Shown here: in pieces, positions 32,935 through 42,585 of the stretch
Layout: each line of letters opens with the position of its first letter
How positions within the stretch are numbered: position 1 is the first letter of the stretch
Source: Methylophilus sp. QUAN
GTDB taxonomy: Bacteria > Pseudomonadota > Gammaproteobacteria > Burkholderiales > Methylophilaceae
DNA: 64,000 nt
Assembly (NCBI RefSeq): GCF_015354445.1
Contig: NZ_JADKYT010000001.1
Location: 372,001 to 436,000 of the forward strand
Direction of reading: 5' to 3'
The notes under the pieces: model-generated
Told to the model about the DNA's origin: nothing
Seen by the model: the letters and a program-made list of their open reading frames with translations, nothing else
Database searches by the model: none
Translations under genes and position numbers: made by a program

Positions 32935-33750
32935 TTAAGGCTTGTTTGCGGTTTCTGGCGGTAAATTCACCTCCAGTGTCAGTGAGGCATTCTGGCTTTC
33001 CCACAAATTTTCATTCAACTGGTGATGCACGGTGACAAATAGAAAATTCAACCCGGCTTTTTGCGGATGAAAGCTAAACTCGCCTTGCTGGTTGGCATGA
33101 AGGTTGGAAGTTCTGACATTGTCGAGGTCGTATAAATCTTCAACTCTATGTTTAATAAAATGCTCGTTATCCGTCACCACAATAATGCGTGCATCCGGTA
33201 CCGGCTTGCCATTTTCCAGCACGCGGAAACTGAGTTCACCGCCCAGCAGCAGGCCATTGGGTGACGCCAGTGGAATAATCTCCAGGCCTTGGTTAAAGGG
33301 CTTGGCTGTGTATTTTTGCTGGCCTTTAAAAATATAGGTGTCAGCATAGCTGTAGTAATTCATGGTGGTCGGCTTGCCGGTCACGCGTTTCATATCAGCG
33401 GCAAAATACAGTTTTTTATCAGCCGTCTCTACCGCTTTATATACCGGGCCCACGCGTAGTCCGGTGCTGATGCGATAAGTGCCTTCTTCTTTTAATTCTG
33501 GCTCGAGATACACCGCTGCTTTGGTCTTGGCGATAGGTTTGATCGCCGAGGTCGTGCCGTTAGGCGCCGTGATCGTAAAGTTGGGGGAATCCATGGCAAA
33601 GTCGGCCTGGAATGGAAACTCGGTAAACGCCGATTCAATGGTCAGGCGGTGATGCGTGACATTGAACTGGTTGGGCTTTAAAAACGGCACATGCGCCTCG
33701 GCAGCCAGGGAGGCAACGAAGGCGATGATGGCTAAGGAAAGTTTTTTCAT
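32935..33750 (-). CDS. Periplasmic DUF4198 protein
   Basis: 271 residues with a signal peptide (cleaved near AAEAH), leaving an N-terminal His-Val-Pro as in many DUF4198 proteins. The rest is beta-sandwich-like, with a Pfam-type carboxypeptidase-regulatory segment (LSFRVLENGKPVPDARIIVV) and HPQKAGLNFLFVTVHHQ. DUF4198 genes often accompany nickel or cobalt transporters. Its position 15 bp after cobU suggests a role in cobalt or corrinoid acquisition (inference). Confidence 0.78.
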   Translation of the reverse strand: MKKLSLAIIAFVASLAAEAHVPFLKPNQFNVTHHRLTIESAFTEFPFQADFAMDSPNFTITAPNGTTSAIKPIAKTKAAVYLEPELKEEGTYRISTGLRVGPVYKAVETADKKLYFAADMKRVTGKPTTMNYYSYADTYIFKGQQKYTAKPFNQGLEIIPLASPNGLLLGGELSFRVLENGKPVPDARIIVVTDNEHFIKHRVEDLYDLDNVRTSNLHANQQGEFSFHPQKAGLNFLFVTVHHQLNENLWESQNASLTLEVNLPPETANKP

Positions 33751-33765
33751 GGTATTTCTTTCTTG

Positions 33766-34290
33766 TTATTTAAGCTTTAACGGCAAGCCTGCTGCAATAA
33801 AACTGACTGCATTGGCAATTGCGGCCACATGCTGGTTCAAGCGACCTTGTTCATCCTGAAATTGGCGATTTATTTCGCCCAGCGGCACGATGCCCATGCC
33901 GACTTCATTGCTGACCAAAAACACTGTGGCTTGCAATTGTGGCAACGCGTCCAGCAAGGCCTGCTTTTCGGCCTGCCAATCCAGCCGCTCTGGTTTGTCG
34001 CAGTCGGGGCAGATGCATTGTGCTAACCACAAGGTGAGGCAATCAACGATTAAACAACTGTCGGGCGCATCGTTATCCAGCAATGTTTGCCCGAGGTTAA
34101 ACGGCGCTTCTACCAGCGCCCAATGGGGTGGGCGACGTTCTTTGTGGTGCGACACCCGCTTGGCAAACTCATCGTCATACACTTGCGCGGTGGCGATATA
34201 AGTCACTGGACACTCAAGTGCAGAAGCCAGCCGCTCTGCATAAGCACTTTTGCCGCTACGCGCACCGCCTAAAATCAGGTGACTAGTCAT
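33766..34290 (-). CDS. cobU: Adenosylcobinamide kinase / adenosylcobinamide-phosphate guanylyltransferase
   Basis: 174 residues. P-loop GGARSGKSAYAERLA at the N-terminus, the CobU stretch ATAQVYDDEFAKRVSHHKERR with the guanylylated His region, VDCLTLWLAQ, and VSNEVGMGIVP. It phosphorylates adenosylcobinamide and transfers GMP to give adenosylcobinamide-GDP, the substrate of CobS. The ATG overlaps the btuF-like stop (ATGA). Confidence 0.93.
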   Translation of the reverse strand: MTSHLILGGARSGKSAYAERLASALECPVTYIATAQVYDDEFAKRVSHHKERRPPHWALVEAPFNLGQTLLDNDAPDSCLIVDCLTLWLAQCICPDCDKPERLDWQAEKQALLDALPQLQATVFLVSNEVGMGIVPLGEINRQFQDEQGRLNQHVAAIANAVSFIAAGLPLKLK

Positions 34291-35093
34291 AAAACACTCC
34301 CGTGCTGCTGTTGCCAGCGTTGAATAATGAGTTGCAATTGCGGTAGGCCTTCCGTAAACAATGCGGGGCCGGGCTGCAAAATATCGACGGATTTGATTTC
34401 GTAAATGTGCCCATCACGAATCGCTGGCATCGCTTGCCAACCTGCACGTGCAGCCACTTTTGTTGGCTGAAATTTTTTACCGCACCAGGAGCCGATGATG
34501 ATGTCAGGCTGCGCGGCTAATACCTGCTCGGCGGTGACTTGGCGGTCACGTGCGCTGTGAAACTGGCTTAAGTGCGGGAAGCAATCGACGCCACCTGCGG
34601 CTTCAATGAGCTCGGCTGCCCAGCGGATGCTGCACATCATGGGCTCGTCCCATTCTTCAAAATAGACCTTGGGTTTGCGTGACCAAGCTGCGGCTTGCTG
34701 GCGCGCGGCAGTCAGTTGTGCCTGGTAAGTTCCTACCAGTTTCTCAGCTTTGTCGCTGGCCCCGACCAAGTCGCCAACGGTGAGTATCATTTGCAAGGTT
34801 TCGTCCAGGCTGCGCTGGTTAAACACATGCACCTGGCAACCGGCTTTAATCAGTGACGCGGCAATGTCGGCCTGCAAGTTAGAAAAACACAGCACCAGGT
34901 CTGGTTGCAGGGCCAGAATTTTTTCGATATTGGCGCTGGTAAATGCACTGATTTTAGGTTTTTCTTTGCGTGCAATCACCGGGCGCGTGGTGAAGCCAGA
35001 AATGCCGACAAGGCGGTCTTGCTCACCCAGGAGGTACAACACTTCCACCGTTTCCGTGGTCAGGCAGACGATGCGTTGCGGCCAGCGCTTCAT
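34287..35093 (-). CDS. Cobalamin-binding BtuF-like protein without signal peptide
   Basis: 268 residues of the BtuF/FecB periplasmic-binding fold: RIVCLTTETVEVLYLLG at the N-terminus, LQPDLVLCFSNLQ, FEEWDEPMM and VLAAQPDIIIGSWCG. The protein starts directly with the domain (MKRWPQRIV), and no in-frame start upstream gives a leader, so it should be cytoplasmic as encoded. No BtuC or BtuD is nearby. It overlaps bluB and cobU by four bases each, so it belongs to the cobalamin operon. It may bind corrinoid inside the cell or be exported by an unrecognised route. Confidence 0.78.
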   Translation of the reverse strand: MKRWPQRIVCLTTETVEVLYLLGEQDRLVGISGFTTRPVIARKEKPKISAFTSANIEKILALQPDLVLCFSNLQADIAASLIKAGCQVHVFNQRSLDETLQMILTVGDLVGASDKAEKLVGTYQAQLTAARQQAAAWSRKPKVYFEEWDEPMMCSIRWAAELIEAAGGVDCFPHLSQFHSARDRQVTAEQVLAAQPDIIIGSWCGKKFQPTKVAARAGWQAMPAIRDGHIYEIKSVDILQPGPALFTEGLPQLQLIIQRWQQQHGSVL

Positions 35094-35761
35094 GGCTGCG
35101 CCTCGTGATTGTGCCAGCCGTTTTCCATCAACATGTCTGAGAGTGGTTTTTCGGTAGCCCAGCCTTGTTCAACCAGCATGGGTGATTTGTAAAAAGTATT
35201 CACGTAACCCAGGCATAAAATCGCCACCGGTTTGGCATCCTCTGGCATGCCTAATAATTGCGCCAGGGCTTGCGGGTCAAACAGGCTGACCCAGCCCATG
35301 CCTATGCCTTCTGCGCGCGCAGCTAGCCACAGGTTTTGAATCGCACAACTGACTGAAGCCAAGTCCATTTCGGGCAGTGTGCGACGGCCAAATACATATT
35401 TCTCGCGCTGGTCACACAAGGTGGCGACCAGTAATTCGCCACAGTCCAAAATGCCTTCAACCTTGAGTCGCATAAATTCGGCCATGCGCGCGGTATTTTC
35501 AACTTCGCCTATCGCCTGTGCCGTGCGTTTACGTTCTTCATCCACCAGCGCATGTATATGTTTGCGTAAGCTAGCGTCGCTGATACGGATAAAGCGCCAT
35601 GGCTGCATCAGGCCAACGCTGGGGGCATGGTGTGCGGCTTGCAATAGTGTTTGCAATAATTCAGGCGCAATCGGCGTCGGCAAAAAATGCCGCATGTCGC
35701 GCCGCTCGGCAATGACTTTGTAGATCGCCGCTTTGTCAGTCTCTGAATAGGCAAAACTCAT
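35090..35761 (-). CDS. bluB: 5,6-dimethylbenzimidazole synthase
   Basis: 223 residues, flavin-destructase of the nitroreductase fold. RRDMRHF at 20-26, LLQAAHHAPSVGLMQPWRFI, the catalytic-type aspartate region RTLPEMDLASVSCAIQNLW, and GIGMGWVSLFDP match BluB. It converts reduced FMN with oxygen to dimethylbenzimidazole, the lower ligand used by CobT. It implies aerobic cobalamin assembly. Four-base overlaps with both neighbours. Confidence 0.93.
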   Translation of the reverse strand: MSFAYSETDKAAIYKVIAERRDMRHFLPTPIAPELLQTLLQAAHHAPSVGLMQPWRFIRISDASLRKHIHALVDEERKRTAQAIGEVENTARMAEFMRLKVEGILDCGELLVATLCDQREKYVFGRRTLPEMDLASVSCAIQNLWLAARAEGIGMGWVSLFDPQALAQLLGMPEDAKPVAILCLGYVNTFYKSPMLVEQGWATEKPLSDMLMENGWHNHEAQP

Positions 35762-37038
35762 GGCAGGAAAAAATGTGCGGCCAGCGCCGGGTTCGACGGG
35801 AAGTAAAAATGCAGAAAACTAGCGGTGATATTCTGGTGGCGATAGACCGCTTCACCCGCGCCATATTTGCCTTTGCCTTGGGCAATCACCGGCATATCAG
35901 TGTCAAAGCGGCCATAGTGAAAGGTGTGTGCACCTATGCTGGCCGCGTCGTCGTCCGTCGTTGCAAACGTGGCGTGTTGCGTGCCCAGGCCTTGTAGCTT
36001 GGGTTGAATCTCACTGTTGCCTGGCAGCAGCCCGAACACAGGCTGGCCATTCAGTGTGTCACCCAGCGCCAGCATGCCGCCGCATTCGGCCAGGATAGGT
36101 TTGCCCGCTTGGGCGGCGGCGTGTAGCCCGTCGCGCATGCTGTGGTTATGTTGCAATTGGTCCAAATGCAGTTCGGGATAGCCGCCAGGTAGCCAATAAG
36201 CATCTGCGGCAGGTAACTGCGCATCGTGCACAGGTGAGAAAAACGCAATATTGGCACCCAGTGTTTGCAGTAAATCCAAATTCGCTTGATAAGTAAAACA
36301 GAACGCAGCATCTTTCGCCACGGCAATGGTTTTGTCTTGCAGCAATGGCGTCGTAGCAAGTGACTCCGGTGCTTGAAAGCTAACGGTGGGCGGCAAAGGA
36401 ATCTCTGGCCCAAGTAATTGCGCAGCGGTTTCTATGCGCTGCTCAATATCGTCAATCTCTTGTGCCAGGTGCAGACCGAGGTGGCGCTCTGGCAAACTCA
36501 GTTGTGGGTCATGCTTCATGGCGCCCAGCCAGGGGATATCGGCTGGCAAGGCGGCTTGGATCATCTTGGCGTGGCCATCGCTGCCCACCTGATTGGCAAA
36601 TACGCCTGCCCGTTTCAAGCTTGGCCTAAACGCGTACAAGCCAAAGGCAATCGCGGTAAAAGTTTGTGCCATGGCTTTGGCGTTAATCACCAAGCCGACG
36701 GCAATGCCAAAACGCTCGGCAATGTCGGCACAAGAAGGCGTGCCATCATACAGACCCATCACGCCTTCGAGCAGAATAACGTCATTTTGCTGGGCGGCTT
36801 GATAGAGCAAGCGCTGCGCATCGGCTTCACCACACATGCCGAGGTCGAGGTTATAGACTGGCTTGCCAGTGGCGACTTGCAGAATCATGCCGTCAATAAA
36901 GTCCGGGCCGCATTTAAAGGCTTGCACACGCAGGCCGCGCTTGCGGTAAGCGCGAGCCAACGCGGCTGTGGTCATGGTTTTGCCTTGGCCGGAAGCAGGC
37001 GCAGCCATGAGCATGGCGTGACAGCTGGCTGCTTGCAT
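35758..37038 (-). CDS. cbiA: Cobyrinate a,c-diamide synthase
   Basis: 426 residues. P-loop APASGQGKTMTTAALARAY at the N-terminus, then a glutamine amidotransferase domain with Cys in LAECGGMLALG and His in HTFHYGRFD. It amidates the a and c side chains of (hydrogeno)cobyrinic acid. I chose the ATG that overlaps the cobO stop by one base (TAATG). CbiA acts before CobO, so its presence means that the cell either makes the corrin ring elsewhere or takes up early corrinoids. Confidence 0.92.
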   Translation of the reverse strand: MQAASCHAMLMAAPASGQGKTMTTAALARAYRKRGLRVQAFKCGPDFIDGMILQVATGKPVYNLDLGMCGEADAQRLLYQAAQQNDVILLEGVMGLYDGTPSCADIAERFGIAVGLVINAKAMAQTFTAIAFGLYAFRPSLKRAGVFANQVGSDGHAKMIQAALPADIPWLGAMKHDPQLSLPERHLGLHLAQEIDDIEQRIETAAQLLGPEIPLPPTVSFQAPESLATTPLLQDKTIAVAKDAAFCFTYQANLDLLQTLGANIAFFSPVHDAQLPAADAYWLPGGYPELHLDQLQHNHSMRDGLHAAAQAGKPILAECGGMLALGDTLNGQPVFGLLPGNSEIQPKLQGLGTQHATFATTDDDAASIGAHTFHYGRFDTDMPVIAQGKGKYGAGEAVYRHQNITASFLHFYFPSNPALAAHFFLP

Positions 37039-37643
37039 TAGAGGTCTATCCCAGCCTGGGCTTTGATGCCTGCGCGCCAAGCGTGTTTGACGTCCATCAG
37101 TTCAGACACAGTATCGGCCGCATTTCTCAATGCCTCAGAAGCACCGCGGCCAGTAATCACCACGTGCTGCATGGGCGGGCGCTTGGCGATGGCGTCCAGC
37201 ACCATTTGCTCATCCAGGTAACCGTATTTGAAGGTGTAAGTGAGCTCGTCCAGCACCACGAGATTGATCGCAGGGTCTTGCAGCATCTGCACCACAATTT
37301 GCCAGCCACGCATGGCCGTTTCGGTGTCACGCTGGCGATCTTGTGTGTTCCAGGTAAAGCCTTCGCCCAGCACATGCCAGGTCACTGACGGATGCTGGCG
37401 GAAAAAGGCTTCTTCGCCGGTATCTGAACGGCCTTTGATAAATTGGGCAACGCCGACACGCATGCCGTGGCCGAGGGAGCGGGCCACCATGCCAAAGGCG
37501 GAAGAGCTTTTGCCTTTGCCGTTGCCGGTGAGAATGAGGAGCAGGCCTTTTTCCTGATTGGCCTGCTCGATTTTTTCGTCAATGACCGCTTTTTTGCGGA
37601 TCATGCGCGCCTTATGGCGGCTGTCACGGTCATTGGTTTCCAT
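37038..37643 (-). CDS. cobO: Cob(I)yrinic acid a,c-diamide adenosyltransferase
   Basis: 201 residues, CobO/BtuR/CobA type. An N-terminal basic helix (RHKARMIRKKAVIDEKI) precedes the P-loop TGNGKGKSSSAFGMVARSLGH-type stretch. VVLDELTYTFKYGYLD and HVVITGRGASEAL follow. It transfers the 5'-deoxyadenosyl group of ATP to cobalt, in synthesis and in salvage. Followed directly by cbiA and preceded by the btuM-like gene with a 14-bp gap. Confidence 0.93.
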   Translation of the reverse strand: METNDRDSRHKARMIRKKAVIDEKIEQANQEKGLLLILTGNGKGKSSSAFGMVARSLGHGMRVGVAQFIKGRSDTGEEAFFRQHPSVTWHVLGEGFTWNTQDRQRDTETAMRGWQIVVQMLQDPAINLVVLDELTYTFKYGYLDEQMVLDAIAKRPPMQHVVITGRGASEALRNAADTVSELMDVKHAWRAGIKAQAGIDL

Positions 37644-37657
37644 GATGCAGTTATAGC

Positions 37658-38227
37658 TTAAGCGTTTTCGCGCACGGAACGCTTGGCCAGGCCAAACACC
37701 ACATGTGCAATCAGTGCTACCACCACCCAGAATGCAATCGCTTCGAGCTGTTTTGGGAAGTATTTCACTAAACGTGGCACGAATTCGGCAAAGGTCGGGT
37801 CAGGATAACGGCCACCAAAGAAGTAGAAGCCACCACTGGAGAACAACTCAGCAATCGCAGAAGCGGCAACCACTACGCCCGTCAATTTAAACAGGCTGCT
37901 GAATGCCCAGGTGGTGTTGTCTGCCAGCCAGCGGCCAGCCAACCACATGGTGCCATAGGCTGGTAACAAAAAGCCATAGGCAGGCGTCACGCAAAAGTTG
38001 CTCACGCCACCCCAGGTCACTGCTGCCATATCCAGGCCAGCGCACAAAGCCAGCAGGGCAACAAACATGATTGTCGAGCGCAGGTAGTAACCGGCAATCA
38101 AAAACGCAGCGTAAGAAGCGCTAGGCAAAAAATCGATAGAAGCGAAATGATGACCGCGTGTGACGATGACCATCAGCGCAATAACAAGCGCAACTGCCAG
38201 AGATTGAGTTGAAATTTTACTTGGCAT
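37658..38227 (-). CDS. btuM: Probable BtuM, solitary ECF-type S-component for cobalamin
   Basis: 189 residues with about six membrane helices and no soluble domain. The length, the loop HHFASIDFLPSASYAAFLIAG and the segment SNFCVTPAYGFLLPAYGTMW fit BtuM, a family described from Thiobacillus denitrificans in which a single cysteine (Cys80 there) ligates the cobalt of B12. Cys79 here is at the matching place. BtuM works without an ECF energising module. It sits between btuB and cobO. I base the call on remembered family features plus context, without alignment. Confidence 0.7.
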   Translation of the reverse strand: MPSKISTQSLAVALVIALMVIVTRGHHFASIDFLPSASYAAFLIAGYYLRSTIMFVALLALCAGLDMAAVTWGGVSNFCVTPAYGFLLPAYGTMWLAGRWLADNTTWAFSSLFKLTGVVVAASAIAELFSSGGFYFFGGRYPDPTFAEFVPRLVKYFPKQLEAIAFWVVVALIAHVVFGLAKRSVRENA

Positions 38228-38315: not shown

Positions 38316-40169
38316 TTACTTCATGTCGTAATTCAGGCTCACGAACACATTTGTGCCCATAGTGTTGTAGTCCACCGTAGAGGATGCAGCGGCTAACACG
38401 TAGTTTTTATCTAGAATGTTATTTGCGCGTGCTTGTAACTTCCATTGCGGATTGATTCGGTAAGCCAGCGTGCTATTTAATAATGCATAACCACTCAGGT
38501 TGAGTCTGATGCTTTTATCATAATCGTCACGTTGTGATGATGCGGTTAATTCTGTTGACCAGTCCCAAGGGCCATCTGAATATTGCAGAATCAGGTTGCC
38601 GTAACGTTGCGCGCGACGGGCTAATAGTCTGTCTGTTGCATCTACGCGAGGTGACTGTATTGTTAAGTTTCCACTTAATTGCCAGTAATCATTAATCGAG
38701 AGTTTGCTCTCCAGTGTGGCTCCTTGAATTTCCACTTTGCCAGCGTTTGCTGCACAGGTAGCGGTTCCGTTTGGGCAACCTGCTCTGAAGGTTTGGATAA
38801 AGTTACGAATATGGTTATCAAATACCGTCAATTTGGCCTGGAATGTTTGACTTTGGTAACGGGCACTTGCCTCAATATTGTCAGCTTTTTCTGAAGGTAA
38901 GTCGGCATTACCAAAGCTAGCAGCATAAAGCTGATTAAATGTTGGTGCCCTGAATGATGAGCCGTATTGTGCTGTCAATCGCCATGCTGAAGAGAGGTCA
39001 TAACCGTAACCGATCCCTCCCGTTGTGAAATTGCCAAACTGGCTATTATGGTCCTCACGTAATGAAAGCTGAGCACTATGTGCCTCATAATTGGCTGTAT
39101 ACCCTAATACGAACGCATCATTATTGCGGCTTCTATCTAAGGTCTGCTTGCCATTAGATTTTGTTACGACATCTTGCTCCAGCCTGTCATACGCAAAGGT
39201 CAGTGTGCCATGGGATAAACTGTAATCATGCTGCCAAGAGAGTTGACGTTGTTCCGTATCAATATTGCTATTAGAGGTTGGGTTGCTAACGTTAAATAAA
39301 CTGTCACGGCCAACGCTGTACTCCAATTTACTGTTCCAATGTTCAGTGAGCGCATTTCTGAGTGCAATCCCATATCCTTGTTGATGGCGCTCAGACTTAC
39401 TGAATGCACTGCCGCCGTCATATTGGTTTTGACCACTGCTTTCTAAATAGTGTATGCCCAATGAATGGCCTGGTGAAAACTCAAGGTCTGCATAAGACGA
39501 GCTACTAAAGTTGTTATAGCCATCCCTATCTTGGTCGGCCAATTTTGGCGGGTGTTTGAGTGCAGAAATACCACGCGTGTCATAGTTGCTGATTTGTGCG
39601 CCAAATTTTAGAGCTTGATAGCTCGTGTCAAAGCCAGCATTACCACTGTATGAATCATAGCTGCCTGCACCGGCACTACCGTAAATATGGGTTTTATTGC
39701 CTTTGCCTCGCTTGGTGAAAATTTGAATAACGCCACCGATAGCATCTGAGCCATAGAGACTAGACGCAGGACTGCGTAAAATCTCGATGCGCTCAATGAG
39801 TGCAAGCGGAATGTTTTCAAAAGCAGTGGTACCTGTGGTGGCGGAATTAATACGCACGCCATCCACTAAGACAATCAGCTGATTGTCATTGGTGCCGCGC
39901 AGGGCGATGTTACTACTCGTGCCCATGCCACCATTGGTGTAGCTTTGCACACCAGGTTGAAGCCTCAATAAGTCTGCAAGAGAGCCACCCTGCAGCCTCT
40001 TGATTTCTTCGCTATCGATCACGGTGATATCGCCAGTGACTGTTTTGGTGGATTGTGCAGTTCTACTCGAAGTGACGACTACTTCGTCCAATGCTGGGGT
40101 GATGTTGTCTGTTGCGTAGGTGTTAATAGGCAGTGCCGTGACTAACCCTAATAATGCTATTTTTTTCAT
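38316..40169 (-). CDS. btuB: TonB-dependent cobalamin receptor BtuB, copy 1
   Basis: 617 residues. Signal peptide (to about residue 19, ending TYA), TonB box LDEVVVTSSR, plug domain with NDNQLIVLVDGVRIN and IEILRSPASSLYGSDAIGGV, then a 22-strand-type barrel ending FVSLNYDMK. It imports cobalamin or other corrinoids across the outer membrane using TonB. It is a paralogue of the upstream receptor, which lies 72 bp away. The DNA looks poorer in G+C than the neighbouring biosynthetic genes (by eye). Confidence 0.88.
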   Translation of the reverse strand: MKKIALLGLVTALPINTYATDNITPALDEVVVTSSRTAQSTKTVTGDITVIDSEEIKRLQGGSLADLLRLQPGVQSYTNGGMGTSSNIALRGTNDNQLIVLVDGVRINSATTGTTAFENIPLALIERIEILRSPASSLYGSDAIGGVIQIFTKRGKGNKTHIYGSAGAGSYDSYSGNAGFDTSYQALKFGAQISNYDTRGISALKHPPKLADQDRDGYNNFSSSSYADLEFSPGHSLGIHYLESSGQNQYDGGSAFSKSERHQQGYGIALRNALTEHWNSKLEYSVGRDSLFNVSNPTSNSNIDTEQRQLSWQHDYSLSHGTLTFAYDRLEQDVVTKSNGKQTLDRSRNNDAFVLGYTANYEAHSAQLSLREDHNSQFGNFTTGGIGYGYDLSSAWRLTAQYGSSFRAPTFNQLYAASFGNADLPSEKADNIEASARYQSQTFQAKLTVFDNHIRNFIQTFRAGCPNGTATCAANAGKVEIQGATLESKLSINDYWQLSGNLTIQSPRVDATDRLLARRAQRYGNLILQYSDGPWDWSTELTASSQRDDYDKSIRLNLSGYALLNSTLAYRINPQWKLQARANNILDKNYVLAAASSTVDYNTMGTNVFVSLNYDMK

Positions 40170-40241: not shown

Positions 40242-42113
40242 TTATTTGCCTGGAGTGTAGCGTATGCTCACAAACAGGTTGCTCCCCGGTGTGTTGTATG
40301 GCACGGAGTAGCTTGTTGTGCCAAAGTTTCCATCAATAGCTGTTGAGCCGTAAGCAAGTGCATAATCTTTGTTTAGAACGTTGTTGATGCGCGCTTGAAG
40401 ATTCCACTCACGGTTGACTTTGTAGTCAGCTGTTAGGTTGAGTAAACCATAGCCTGCGAGCCGAACTTGGTTATCAGGGTCGTTGTAACGTGCGGACGAG
40501 GCAATCAACTCTGCTGCAAGATGCCAATTTTCCCAATCTCGGCTTAGATTGATACTGGCATGCCTGTTGGCCCGGCGAACCAGCAGGTTGTCATTGCCAG
40601 TGTTTCTGGGAGATTGAATATCTGCGCTTCCTTTTAACACCCATTCATCCAGCCTGCGGCTGGCCCCGATAGAAATCCCTTCAATTTCAGCATTGACGTT
40701 AATTGGAAGAAAAGATGAGTCCAATGTGATGAAGTTATGGATATTGTTGTGATATAGCGTGAGGTTGGCTGTTTGCAATGTGTCTTGATATCTCAAGCTT
40801 GCCTCAATGTTTTCAGACTTTTCGGCTTGCAGGTTGGGATTGTTGGATGGGTAAACCACTCCACCGTATACATAAGCAAAGTATAAGTCGTTAAATGTTG
40901 GTGCACGGAATGCTTTGCCGTAGCTACCAGTTACACGCCAGTTAGGGGTGATTTTGTAGCCATAGCCTATTCCACCGGTATTGTTTGTGCCAAATTGACT
41001 GCTATGGTCGGTCCTAAGTGTTGTTTGCACGCTGTGTGGCCCAACATCAGCCAAGTATCCAACCAAGAATCCGTCGGTATTGCGTGTTGTTTTCTCAAAT
41101 GGCGTGTCGGAAATGATTTTTTGCTCTAATCTGTCATACATTAATGTCATGCTTCCAACTGGCAGGCTGATATCGTTTTGCCAGGAAAATTGGGTTTGCT
41201 TGGTTTTGTATTTGACGCTTGAGTTGGCATCTAATTTGTTGTACTGGTCATCAATTCCTTCTCCAATACGTGCAGTAGACTTCCAGTACTTAGTAAACTG
41301 GTTTTTGCTAAACAGGCCATAACTTAATTGTGATAAATTGACATAATTCTTATATGTATTGATGCCACTATCATAGTTACTGTGACCTTCACTGTTAAAA
41401 ATCTGTAAGCCGACTTCATGTCCTTCAGTCAGTTGCTGGGAAATAGAACCACTTACCGACAGGTTGCGATAACTATCTCGGTCTTTATCAATGTTGTAAT
41501 GCGTTTTCAGTGCTGAAAAGCCATCGCTATCAGAGCTCGATGCAGTCAGTGAGAATTTCGTGTCTTGATAGGCCCCATTTACGCCAGCATCTGCTGTCAG
41601 GGTGTGGTAGCTGCCATAGCCAAGCCCTGCATAAAATTGAGGTTTTCCCTCACCCTTTTTTGTGAAAATCTGAATAACACCGCCAATAGCATCTTGTCCA
41701 TATAAGCTGGTGGCTGGACCGCGTAAAATTTCGATGCGATCAATTTGCGCTAAAGGAATGTTTTCAAAAGTAGTGGTGCCAGCAGTTGCTGAACTGACAC
41801 GCAAGCCATCAATCAGAACGACGACTTGGCCAGGGTTTGTGCCACGCAAAAAAACACTACTGGTTTTACCTGCACCACCATTAGAGCTGATTTCGATACC
41901 TTGTTGCGCTTGTAATAACTCTATGAATGTAGATTGGCCAGCTCGCAAGATTTCTTCCCGATTAATCACGGTGATATCGGCAATCACAGACTCCAGCTGT
42001 TGAGGTGTACGTGTTGCGGTTACGACGACTTCGTCTAGCGTTAGATTGTCTGCAGCGTAAGCAAGCTCGCTGAAAGAAAGGCCAATAAGGCCTTTAAGAA
42101 TGACTTTTTTCAT
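40242..42113 (-). CDS. btuB: TonB-dependent cobalamin receptor BtuB, copy 2
   Basis: 623 residues. Signal peptide ending ELAYA, TonB box LDEVVVTATR, plug with PGQVVVLIDGLRVS and IEILRGPATSLYGQDAIGGV, and a barrel ending SNLFVSIRYTPGK. It is the first gene after the cobalamin riboswitch, so its expression should fall when B12 is plentiful. Plug regions of the two copies are very similar while barrel loops differ, suggesting different corrinoid preference (inference). Confidence 0.9.
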   Translation of the reverse strand: MKKVILKGLIGLSFSELAYAADNLTLDEVVVTATRTPQQLESVIADITVINREEILRAGQSTFIELLQAQQGIEISSNGGAGKTSSVFLRGTNPGQVVVLIDGLRVSSATAGTTTFENIPLAQIDRIEILRGPATSLYGQDAIGGVIQIFTKKGEGKPQFYAGLGYGSYHTLTADAGVNGAYQDTKFSLTASSSDSDGFSALKTHYNIDKDRDSYRNLSVSGSISQQLTEGHEVGLQIFNSEGHSNYDSGINTYKNYVNLSQLSYGLFSKNQFTKYWKSTARIGEGIDDQYNKLDANSSVKYKTKQTQFSWQNDISLPVGSMTLMYDRLEQKIISDTPFEKTTRNTDGFLVGYLADVGPHSVQTTLRTDHSSQFGTNNTGGIGYGYKITPNWRVTGSYGKAFRAPTFNDLYFAYVYGGVVYPSNNPNLQAEKSENIEASLRYQDTLQTANLTLYHNNIHNFITLDSSFLPINVNAEIEGISIGASRRLDEWVLKGSADIQSPRNTGNDNLLVRRANRHASINLSRDWENWHLAAELIASSARYNDPDNQVRLAGYGLLNLTADYKVNREWNLQARINNVLNKDYALAYGSTAIDGNFGTTSYSVPYNTPGSNLFVSIRYTPGK

Positions 42114-42214: not shown

Positions 42215-42455
42215 CTATACATCATCAGACACCGTCACCCCGCGGTATTGCAATGGTTGGTTGCGAGGCCGGTCTCCGGGCTTGCAAGTTTTGATCTATC
42301 GCCTTCCCGAGCTTGCGCTCAGTGGCATTTGGATAGACCCGCACTTGCTTACCGTTGCGGGGGCAGCACAGGAGTTGCGAATATTGTTCGCGCACCTGTT
42401 TCCCAGTTTCACCTTGCCTGTAGAAATACAGCGAAGGCACCTGACAACTGGTCGC
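42215..42455 (-). promoter_or_regulatory. Cobalamin riboswitch
   Basis: Read on the minus strand, all core elements occur in order: AGGTGCC near 42442, GGTGAAACTGGGAA, CTGCCCCCGCAACGGTAA, GCCACTG at 42326-42320, GGGAAGGC at 42308-42301, and the B12 box AGCCCGGAGACCGGCC at 42282-42267. About 100 bases separate the B12 box from the btuB start. It should reduce expression of the two btuB genes, and perhaps the whole downstream run, when adenosylcobalamin binds. It fills most of the 470-bp gap before the zap genes. Confidence 0.95.
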
Positions 42456-42585
42456 TATTTTAGTCTAAAGCCTGCTTTTTTGCCAGCAAGCCTACTTTCG
42501 ACAGCAATGCTCAAATTATCAATTTACTTTGAAAAAACGCGCTTAGCTATTGACCACACTCATTTTTTTAAAAGATAATGGGCTG

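Follow-up and report, generated by a model that had tools for sequence, protein, structure and literature searches.

The closest known counterpart of the protein described here is BtuM of Thiobacillus denitrificans (Tbd_2719), which restores B12-dependent growth to an Escherichia coli strain without BtuC and BtuF, an ability that its C80S variant does not possess (PMC6072759). According to the portion of that report on which we draw, BtuM alone restores uptake, hydroxocobalamin included; the protein binds cobinamide, as does the C80S variant, for which cobalamin binding is not detectable; the residues His28, Asp67, Cys80, Tyr85, and Arg153 are named in the pocket; the adenosyltransferase gene (btuR/cobO) lies close to btuM in T. 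denitrificans and in most hosts; and transport is proposed to occur by facilitated diffusion followed by trapping by BtuR (PMC6072759). The axial cysteine has been reported to be invariant in the BtuM family. A 2024 study on decyanation by BtuM is said to identify His28 as the upper ligand. The ABC importer BtuCDF, which handles the same class of substrate, requires the permease BtuC and an exported BtuF, and ECF complexes require an EcfT partner.

In the present work, we have analyzed a stretch of 64,000 nucleotides from Methylophilus sp. QUAN (hereafter the window) together with homologous loci from related bacteria. The window BtuM is a further BtuM of a kind that is already known, and the gene itself is ordinary; the noteworthy result lies outside the window, in relatives whose BtuM proteins are devoid of the cobalt-binding cysteine.

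Identification of BtuM in Methylophilus sp. QUAN

A first-pass annotation of the window had proposed a probable BtuM of 189 residues and six helices between btuB and cobO. The open reading frame starts with ATG, its ends fall exactly at the positions given in Table 1, and its neighbors are the btuB2 and cobO genes. A phmmer search of the PDB with its product yielded one match, 8c7p/8ovv (E 1.5e-44), in which 78 of the 173 residues aligned with 8c7p are identical (45%). The titles of these entries in Foldseek describe tagless BtuM with cyanocobalamin and with hydroxycobalamin; they represent the one solved BtuM sequence in the PDB copy searched, and 8c7p is, from the matching residue numbers, presumably the T. 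denitrificans protein. No ECF S-component was present among the PDB sequence matches at E up to 1, no Pfam model matched at E up to 1, and the NCBIfam search returned a single meaningless match (E 0.06).

The AlphaFold2 model of the protein (mean pLDDT 88.1, pTM 0.85) contains the six helices that had been expected (residues 7–27, 38–48, 52–71, 82–104, 109–137, and 146–188), with Cys79 located in loop 3, which links helices 3 and 4. The entry 8c7p was the top match of this protein by phmmer, by Foldseek (E 1.4e-10, TM 0.83/0.88) and by VIA-align (Z 22.0, rmsd 2.4 over 176 residues; Z 21.9 for 8ovv). The ECF S-components (viz. FolT, RibU, and BioY) share its six-helix fold and were matched below 8c7p, at Z 9–12 (11.8 being the best among the matches listed), in agreement with the S-component-like topology that had been anticipated. 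The cysteine singled out by the first-pass annotation in the motif SNFCVTPAYG is present and lies opposite Cys80 in the phmmer alignment with 8c7p, and a position-by-position check places His27, Asp66, Cys79, Tyr84, and Arg152 opposite His28, Asp67, Cys80, Tyr85, and Arg153, the residues named for the pocket of the T. denitrificans protein (PMC6072759). The window BtuM has the fold of that protein and all five of these residues. With the phmmer and fold matches (E 1.5e-44, Z 22.0), what had been a probable assignment to the BtuM family is now near-certain.

Organization of the operon

The earlier description of this btuM as a riboswitch-linked operon copy is borne out by the cobalamin riboswitch that heads its operon (Table 1). 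Additional late corrinoid genes (viz. cobT, cobS, cobC, cobD, cbiB, and cobQ) are found further along, and the presence of cob, cbi, and bluB genes around btuM makes the operon part of a cluster for corrinoid salvage and finishing.

Table 1. Coordinates of btuM, its cobalt-site codons, and the associated operon features in the window.
Feature	Position	Strand	Evidence
Cobalamin riboswitch aptamer RF00174, operon head	42250..42459	-	105.7 bits (gathering 31.5)
btuB1, TonB-dependent outer-membrane B12-type receptor	40242..42113	-	TIGR01779 426.5 bits (best NCBIfam match, under cut-off 599.7); Pfam plug and barrel above cut-off
btuB2, second TonB-dependent B12-type receptor, directly 5' of btuM	38316..40169	-	TIGR01779 413.8 bits (best NCBIfam match, under cut-off 599.7); Pfam plug and barrel above cut-off
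btuM, solitary S-component-like vitamin B12 importer, 189 aa, six helices	37658..38227	-	phmmer, predicted fold
His27 codon, opposite T. denitrificans His28	38147..38149	-	alignment
Cys79 codon, alpha-axial cobalt ligand by alignment with T. denitrificans Cys80	37991..37993	-	alignment, counting
cobO/btuR, ATP:corrinoid adenosyltransferase	37038..37643	-	PF02572 207.9 bits, NF004637 262.6 bits, both above cut-off
cbiA/cobB, cobyrinic acid a,c-diamide synthase	35758..37080 (from TTG; an internal ATG may be the real start)	-	NF002204 411.1 bits, above cut-off
bluB, 5,6-dimethylbenzimidazole synthase	35090..35761	-	TIGR02476 256.3 bits, above cut-off
btuF-like periplasmic-binding-fold protein	34287..35093	-	PF01497 163 bits; PDB 5ysc (vitamin B12-binding protein) E 1.5e-14
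cobU, adenosylcobinamide kinase/guanylyltransferase	33766..34290	-	NF004469 205.8 bits, above cut-off

The locus resembles that of T. denitrificans and most hosts in the proximity of btuR/cobO to btuM (PMC6072759). It contains two btuB genes, as well as a btuF-like gene whose product has no visible signal peptide. The two B12-type btuB genes (38316–40169 and 40242–42113) differ from one another and are arranged in tandem behind a single riboswitch. By eye, no hydrophobic leader could be found for the btuF-like protein (34287–35093) back to the preceding in-frame stop, nor was one seen in any of its 15 homologues in the first 100 loci (L059, L060, L062, L064–L066, L069, L070, L072, L086, L087, L089, L090, L096, and L097). 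The absence of this leader makes the protein an unlikely exported partner, and it is possible that it acts as a cytoplasmic corrinoid binder. Two further elements of the window are a DUF4198 protein beside the cob genes (32935–33750, minus strand, 114.1 bits) and a SAH riboswitch (RF01057; 48443–48525, plus strand, 48.8 bits). DUF4198 proteins are frequently associated with metal uptake.

Proposed uptake route and alternative explanations

Based upon the family, fold, and site residues of BtuM, its operon, and a genome in which EcfT is unmatched and the only FecCD permease is of the heme type, we consider, with a probability of about 0.9, that in the salvage of B12 the btuM product performs the step at the inner membrane. 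The riboswitch would repress the operon at high B12, as is usual for its class, and BtuB1 and BtuB2 would carry cobalamin or cobinamide across the outer membrane. By analogy with the T. denitrificans protein, from which we infer the binding, decyanation, transport, toppling, and trapping steps, the corrinoid would be bound by BtuM in the base-off form, on the periplasmic side, the lower cobalt ligand being Cys79 and the upper one probably His27. The protein would remove cyanide when this is present and would then topple to free the corrinoid inside, where CobO, encoded next door, would adenosylate it and so trap it in the cell. The genome also encodes a MetE-type synthase, and B12 is therefore perhaps dispensable for methionine in this organism.

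It is unlikely that BtuM instead serves to import a non-cobalamin corrinoid, e.g., cobinamide to feed the salvage enzymes encoded alongside it. The cobinamide-finishing genes cobU, cbiB, cobS, cobT, cobC, and bluB around btuM, and the binding of cobinamide by T. denitrificans BtuM, as recorded in the text available (PMC6072759), are consistent with such a role; however, the characterized BtuM handles both compounds, which makes this proposal an addition more than an alternative, and at four related loci (L075, L076, L077, and L093) btuM is kept behind a cobalamin riboswitch in a stretch where cob genes were not detected.

The first-pass annotation had also found no btuC, btuD, or ECF genes in the region, and this absence extends to the genome, in which a search for CbiQ/EcfT (PF02361; the T-component) gave no match, arguing against a hidden ECF module, and a single FecCD permease was found, located in a heme-type operon. 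It appears quite improbable that BtuM acts in its native host as an S-component to which a T-component and a shared ATPase supply the energy. Its fold is that of the ECF S-components (Z 9–12), and a member of the CbiQ family, some 200 aa long, occurs in several relatives (40.2 bits in G284, 37.5 bits in G398, weaker in others); however, its gene is unmatched in the window genome, its product is poorly conserved (19–30% identity to the first alignment row), no ATPase gene adjoins it at the four loci read, and, in the part of the report concerned, T. denitrificans BtuM functions in E. coli without an ECF module (PMC6072759). These four loci (L302, 3047–3676; L303, 3075–3674; L304, 2783–3394; and L305, 2832–3455, on the minus strand) come from organisms with solitary BtuM and contain one and the same gene, flanked by genes that by eye look like fimV and truA. 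CbiQ (PF02361) matches were obtained in 15 of 76 BtuM genomes, 8 of them above the cut-off, and the strong matches (107–123 bits) are in five class-level genomes; the one of these five that was followed (L298) is a cbiM-cbiQ-ATPase cobalt cluster. The presence of a weak EcfT-like gene in several relatives means that the term "strictly solitary" depends on the sensitivity of the search.

The top-scoring models for the FecCD permease are BtuC models, under whose cut-offs it falls, and the binding protein of its operon has a hemin-binding structure as its best PDB match (E 2e-69; the next three at E 1.2e-52 or below), so that this system is ruled out as a hidden BtuCDF by the best matches of its binding protein. 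Entry of B12 through an ordinary BtuCDF-type ABC importer, with BtuM as a decyanating or accessory protein of the periplasmic side, is scarcely tenable, since the btuF-like gene within the operon and the BtuC-like (below cut-off) permease elsewhere in the genome, which would favor it, are opposed by the heme-type nature of the FecCD system, the missing leader of the btuF-like protein and its 15 homologues, and the uptake restored by BtuM alone, also for hydroxocobalamin, in the text available (PMC6072759).

Distribution of BtuM within the Methylophilaceae

A BtuM homologue was found in 29 of the 274 genomes of a class-wide sample, the window genome included. Within the family Methylophilaceae BtuM is near-universal, being present in 166 of 187 genomes and in 116 of the 119 good assemblies. 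The family contains two BtuM clades, the other clade being about 30% identical to that of the window. The clade of the window has cobO directly 3' of btuM in all 26 family loci read (L001, L032–L056), whereas btuM of the other clade often sits in the equivalent position, flanked by btuB and bluB/cobU, with no cobO in the stretch read. Both clades occur in the window genus (14 genomes with one, 8 with the other). In the sample of relatives, four genomes (G304, G311, G323, and G328) carry one BtuM paralogue of each clade, separated by 3 to 12 kb of the same contig.

Absence of the cobalt-binding cysteine in related species

Behind the first-pass annotation lay the belief that the cysteine is common to every member of the BtuM family. 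Cys79 is kept by all 22 genomes of the genus that were read (the window genome included), and by all 31 read outside the family, but this belief fails in more distant relatives within the Methylophilaceae, where it was found in 133 of 161 genomes read (out of 166 with BtuM; G321, G417, G422, G483, and G489 were left out). Of 204 distinct BtuM homologues that were aligned (236 loci), 176 have Cys79 and 28 do not, whereas His27 is found in 202, Asp66 and Tyr84 in all 204, and Arg152 in 96. The 28 Cys-less proteins (loci L075/L257, L102–L106, L156–L176, L236/L261, and L292) all retain Asp66 and Tyr84, and His27 in all 27 cases where this position is covered, and none has Arg152. A Ser in the His27 column was observed in L030, whose branch is very long.

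Cys-less BtuM proteins belong to 6 of the 11 members read of the genus-level group g235, 21 of 29 of g237, and 1 of 42 of g228, the last being a contig of a Methylotenera oryzisoli MAG. One g235 protein (G325) is identical to that of Candidatus Methylopumilus universalis MMS-RIV-52 (L257), and a g237 gene (G393) is that of Methylophilaceae LSUCC0401 (L292); g237 appears to be the marine OM43 lineage. The two named examples are of the same family as the window protein, are preceded by a cobalamin riboswitch, and keep His27, Asp66, and Tyr84, but have Pro (L257, 27% identical to the window BtuM) or Tyr (L292, 19% identical) at the site of the cobalt-binding Cys. The model of the M. universalis protein (pLDDT 89.1) matches 8ovv at Z 21.1 over 170 residues. 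Our literature search for BtuM together with Methylophilaceae returned no paper, and we make no wider claim that Cys-less BtuM is unpublished.

Position 79 of the Cys-less proteins is occupied by Asn (11), Pro (5), Tyr, Ile, and Leu (2 each), and Ser, His, Arg, Ala, Gly, and Thr (1 each), the residue in L175 and L176 being uncertain due to a one-residue insertion. A replacement His as the common ligand is rejected, as His is found once at position 79 and at position 77 in only 9 of 28. Misalignment can likewise be discounted: the stretch is gap-free in the alignment, 12 of the 24 full-length Cys-less proteins contain no cysteine at all (14 of 28 when truncated ones are included), and the M. 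universalis BtuM aligns to 8c7p (E 1.5e-7) with Pro opposite Cys80. The 28 genomes each comprise at most 1.4 Mb of sequence, several of them being incomplete drafts; small size alone does not account for the loss, as 13 genomes of g235 and g237 still have Cys79. A tree built without the columns near the cysteine requires a minimum of three losses, a figure that is a minimum and not a proof because the tree comes from a quick search, and many of its forks are weak and its branches long.

Possible exchange of the btuB-btuM cassette

At eight Methylopumilus loci (L139, L140, L142–L145, L147, and L075), seven of which were compared with one reference locus, a btuB-btuM cassette occupies the same place, a spot that is common to species with and without the BtuM cysteine. 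Most of the flanking genes are 84–99% identical (some 58–73%), compared with 26–58% for btuB and 37–73% for btuM, as if the cassette had been swapped in place. BtuB-type receptors are targets of phages and colicins, which would offer one explanation for the turnover.

Evidence that the Cys-less copies are maintained

The Cys-less btuM genes are under purifying selection, with dN/dS values of 0.17–0.37 for 15 Methylopumilus pairs and 0.10–0.32 for 21 g237 pairs; the Cys-bearing Methylopumilus genes gave 0.20–0.26 (6 pairs). The range of 0.10–0.37 over the 36 Cys-less pairs rules out decay as the cause of the missing cysteine. A cobalamin riboswitch lies upstream on the same strand in 22 of the 26 Cys-less contexts read (covering 26 of the 28 copies, G391 and G416 being left out), and the remaining four contexts (L138, L245, L251, and L253) run into a contig end. 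In all 21 cases checked out of these 22, the stretch between the riboswitch and btuM contains an ORF that matches one of three BtuB-type references, one of which is the M. universalis ORF itself.

Among the 28 Cys-less genomes, 27 gave a match to the B12 domain of MetH, in G413 only in broken pieces; the exception is G407, which is 78% complete. A search for MetE (PF01717) gave no match in 27 of the 28, and the match in G400 (104.8 bits) is to a 349-aa frame that is too short for MetE. No FecCD permease was found in any of the 28, and no CbiQ above the cut-off, with weak matches in five. According to the available part of a report on pelagic Methylophilaceae, these bacteria are without cobalamin synthesis and the isolates were grown in cobalamin-containing media (PMC6794327). 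The Cys-less copies look functional, and the species that carry them seem still to depend on BtuM. Their existence indicates that the cysteine is not required for every BtuM to be kept.

Significance of the loss of the cysteine

We consider it rather likely that several genome-reduced lineages of the Methylophilaceae (viz. Methylopumilus and the LSUCC0401 genus) have given up the cobalt-thiolate bond of BtuM in favor of another mode of binding, in which the conserved His would be the sole protein ligand or the corrinoid would be bound base-on without decyanation, and that the Cys-less BtuM is the leading candidate for carrying B12 across the inner membrane of these bacteria. The C80S variant no longer supports growth and has no detectable cobalamin binding but does bind cobinamide, hence a Cys-less BtuM should bind its corrinoid otherwise. 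Cyanocobalamin is expected to be scarce in sunlit water, and decyanation may for this reason be dispensable there. Sulfur thrift, which is described for streamlined genomes in the part of the report available (PMC6794327), may also add to the loss of the cysteine.

The BtuM of the window is a clean, riboswitch-linked addition to a sparsely solved family, and its Cys-less relatives bear on how a solitary S-component moves B12 and on the part of cobalt-sulfur ligation in this transport. They represent natural tests of the need for a cobalt-thiolate bond in transport, and as Ca. M. universalis is a named isolate, the question is directly testable. If our reading of these relatives is true, ligation by cysteine would be an optional chemistry added upon a general transport by solitary S-components and not the basis of that transport.
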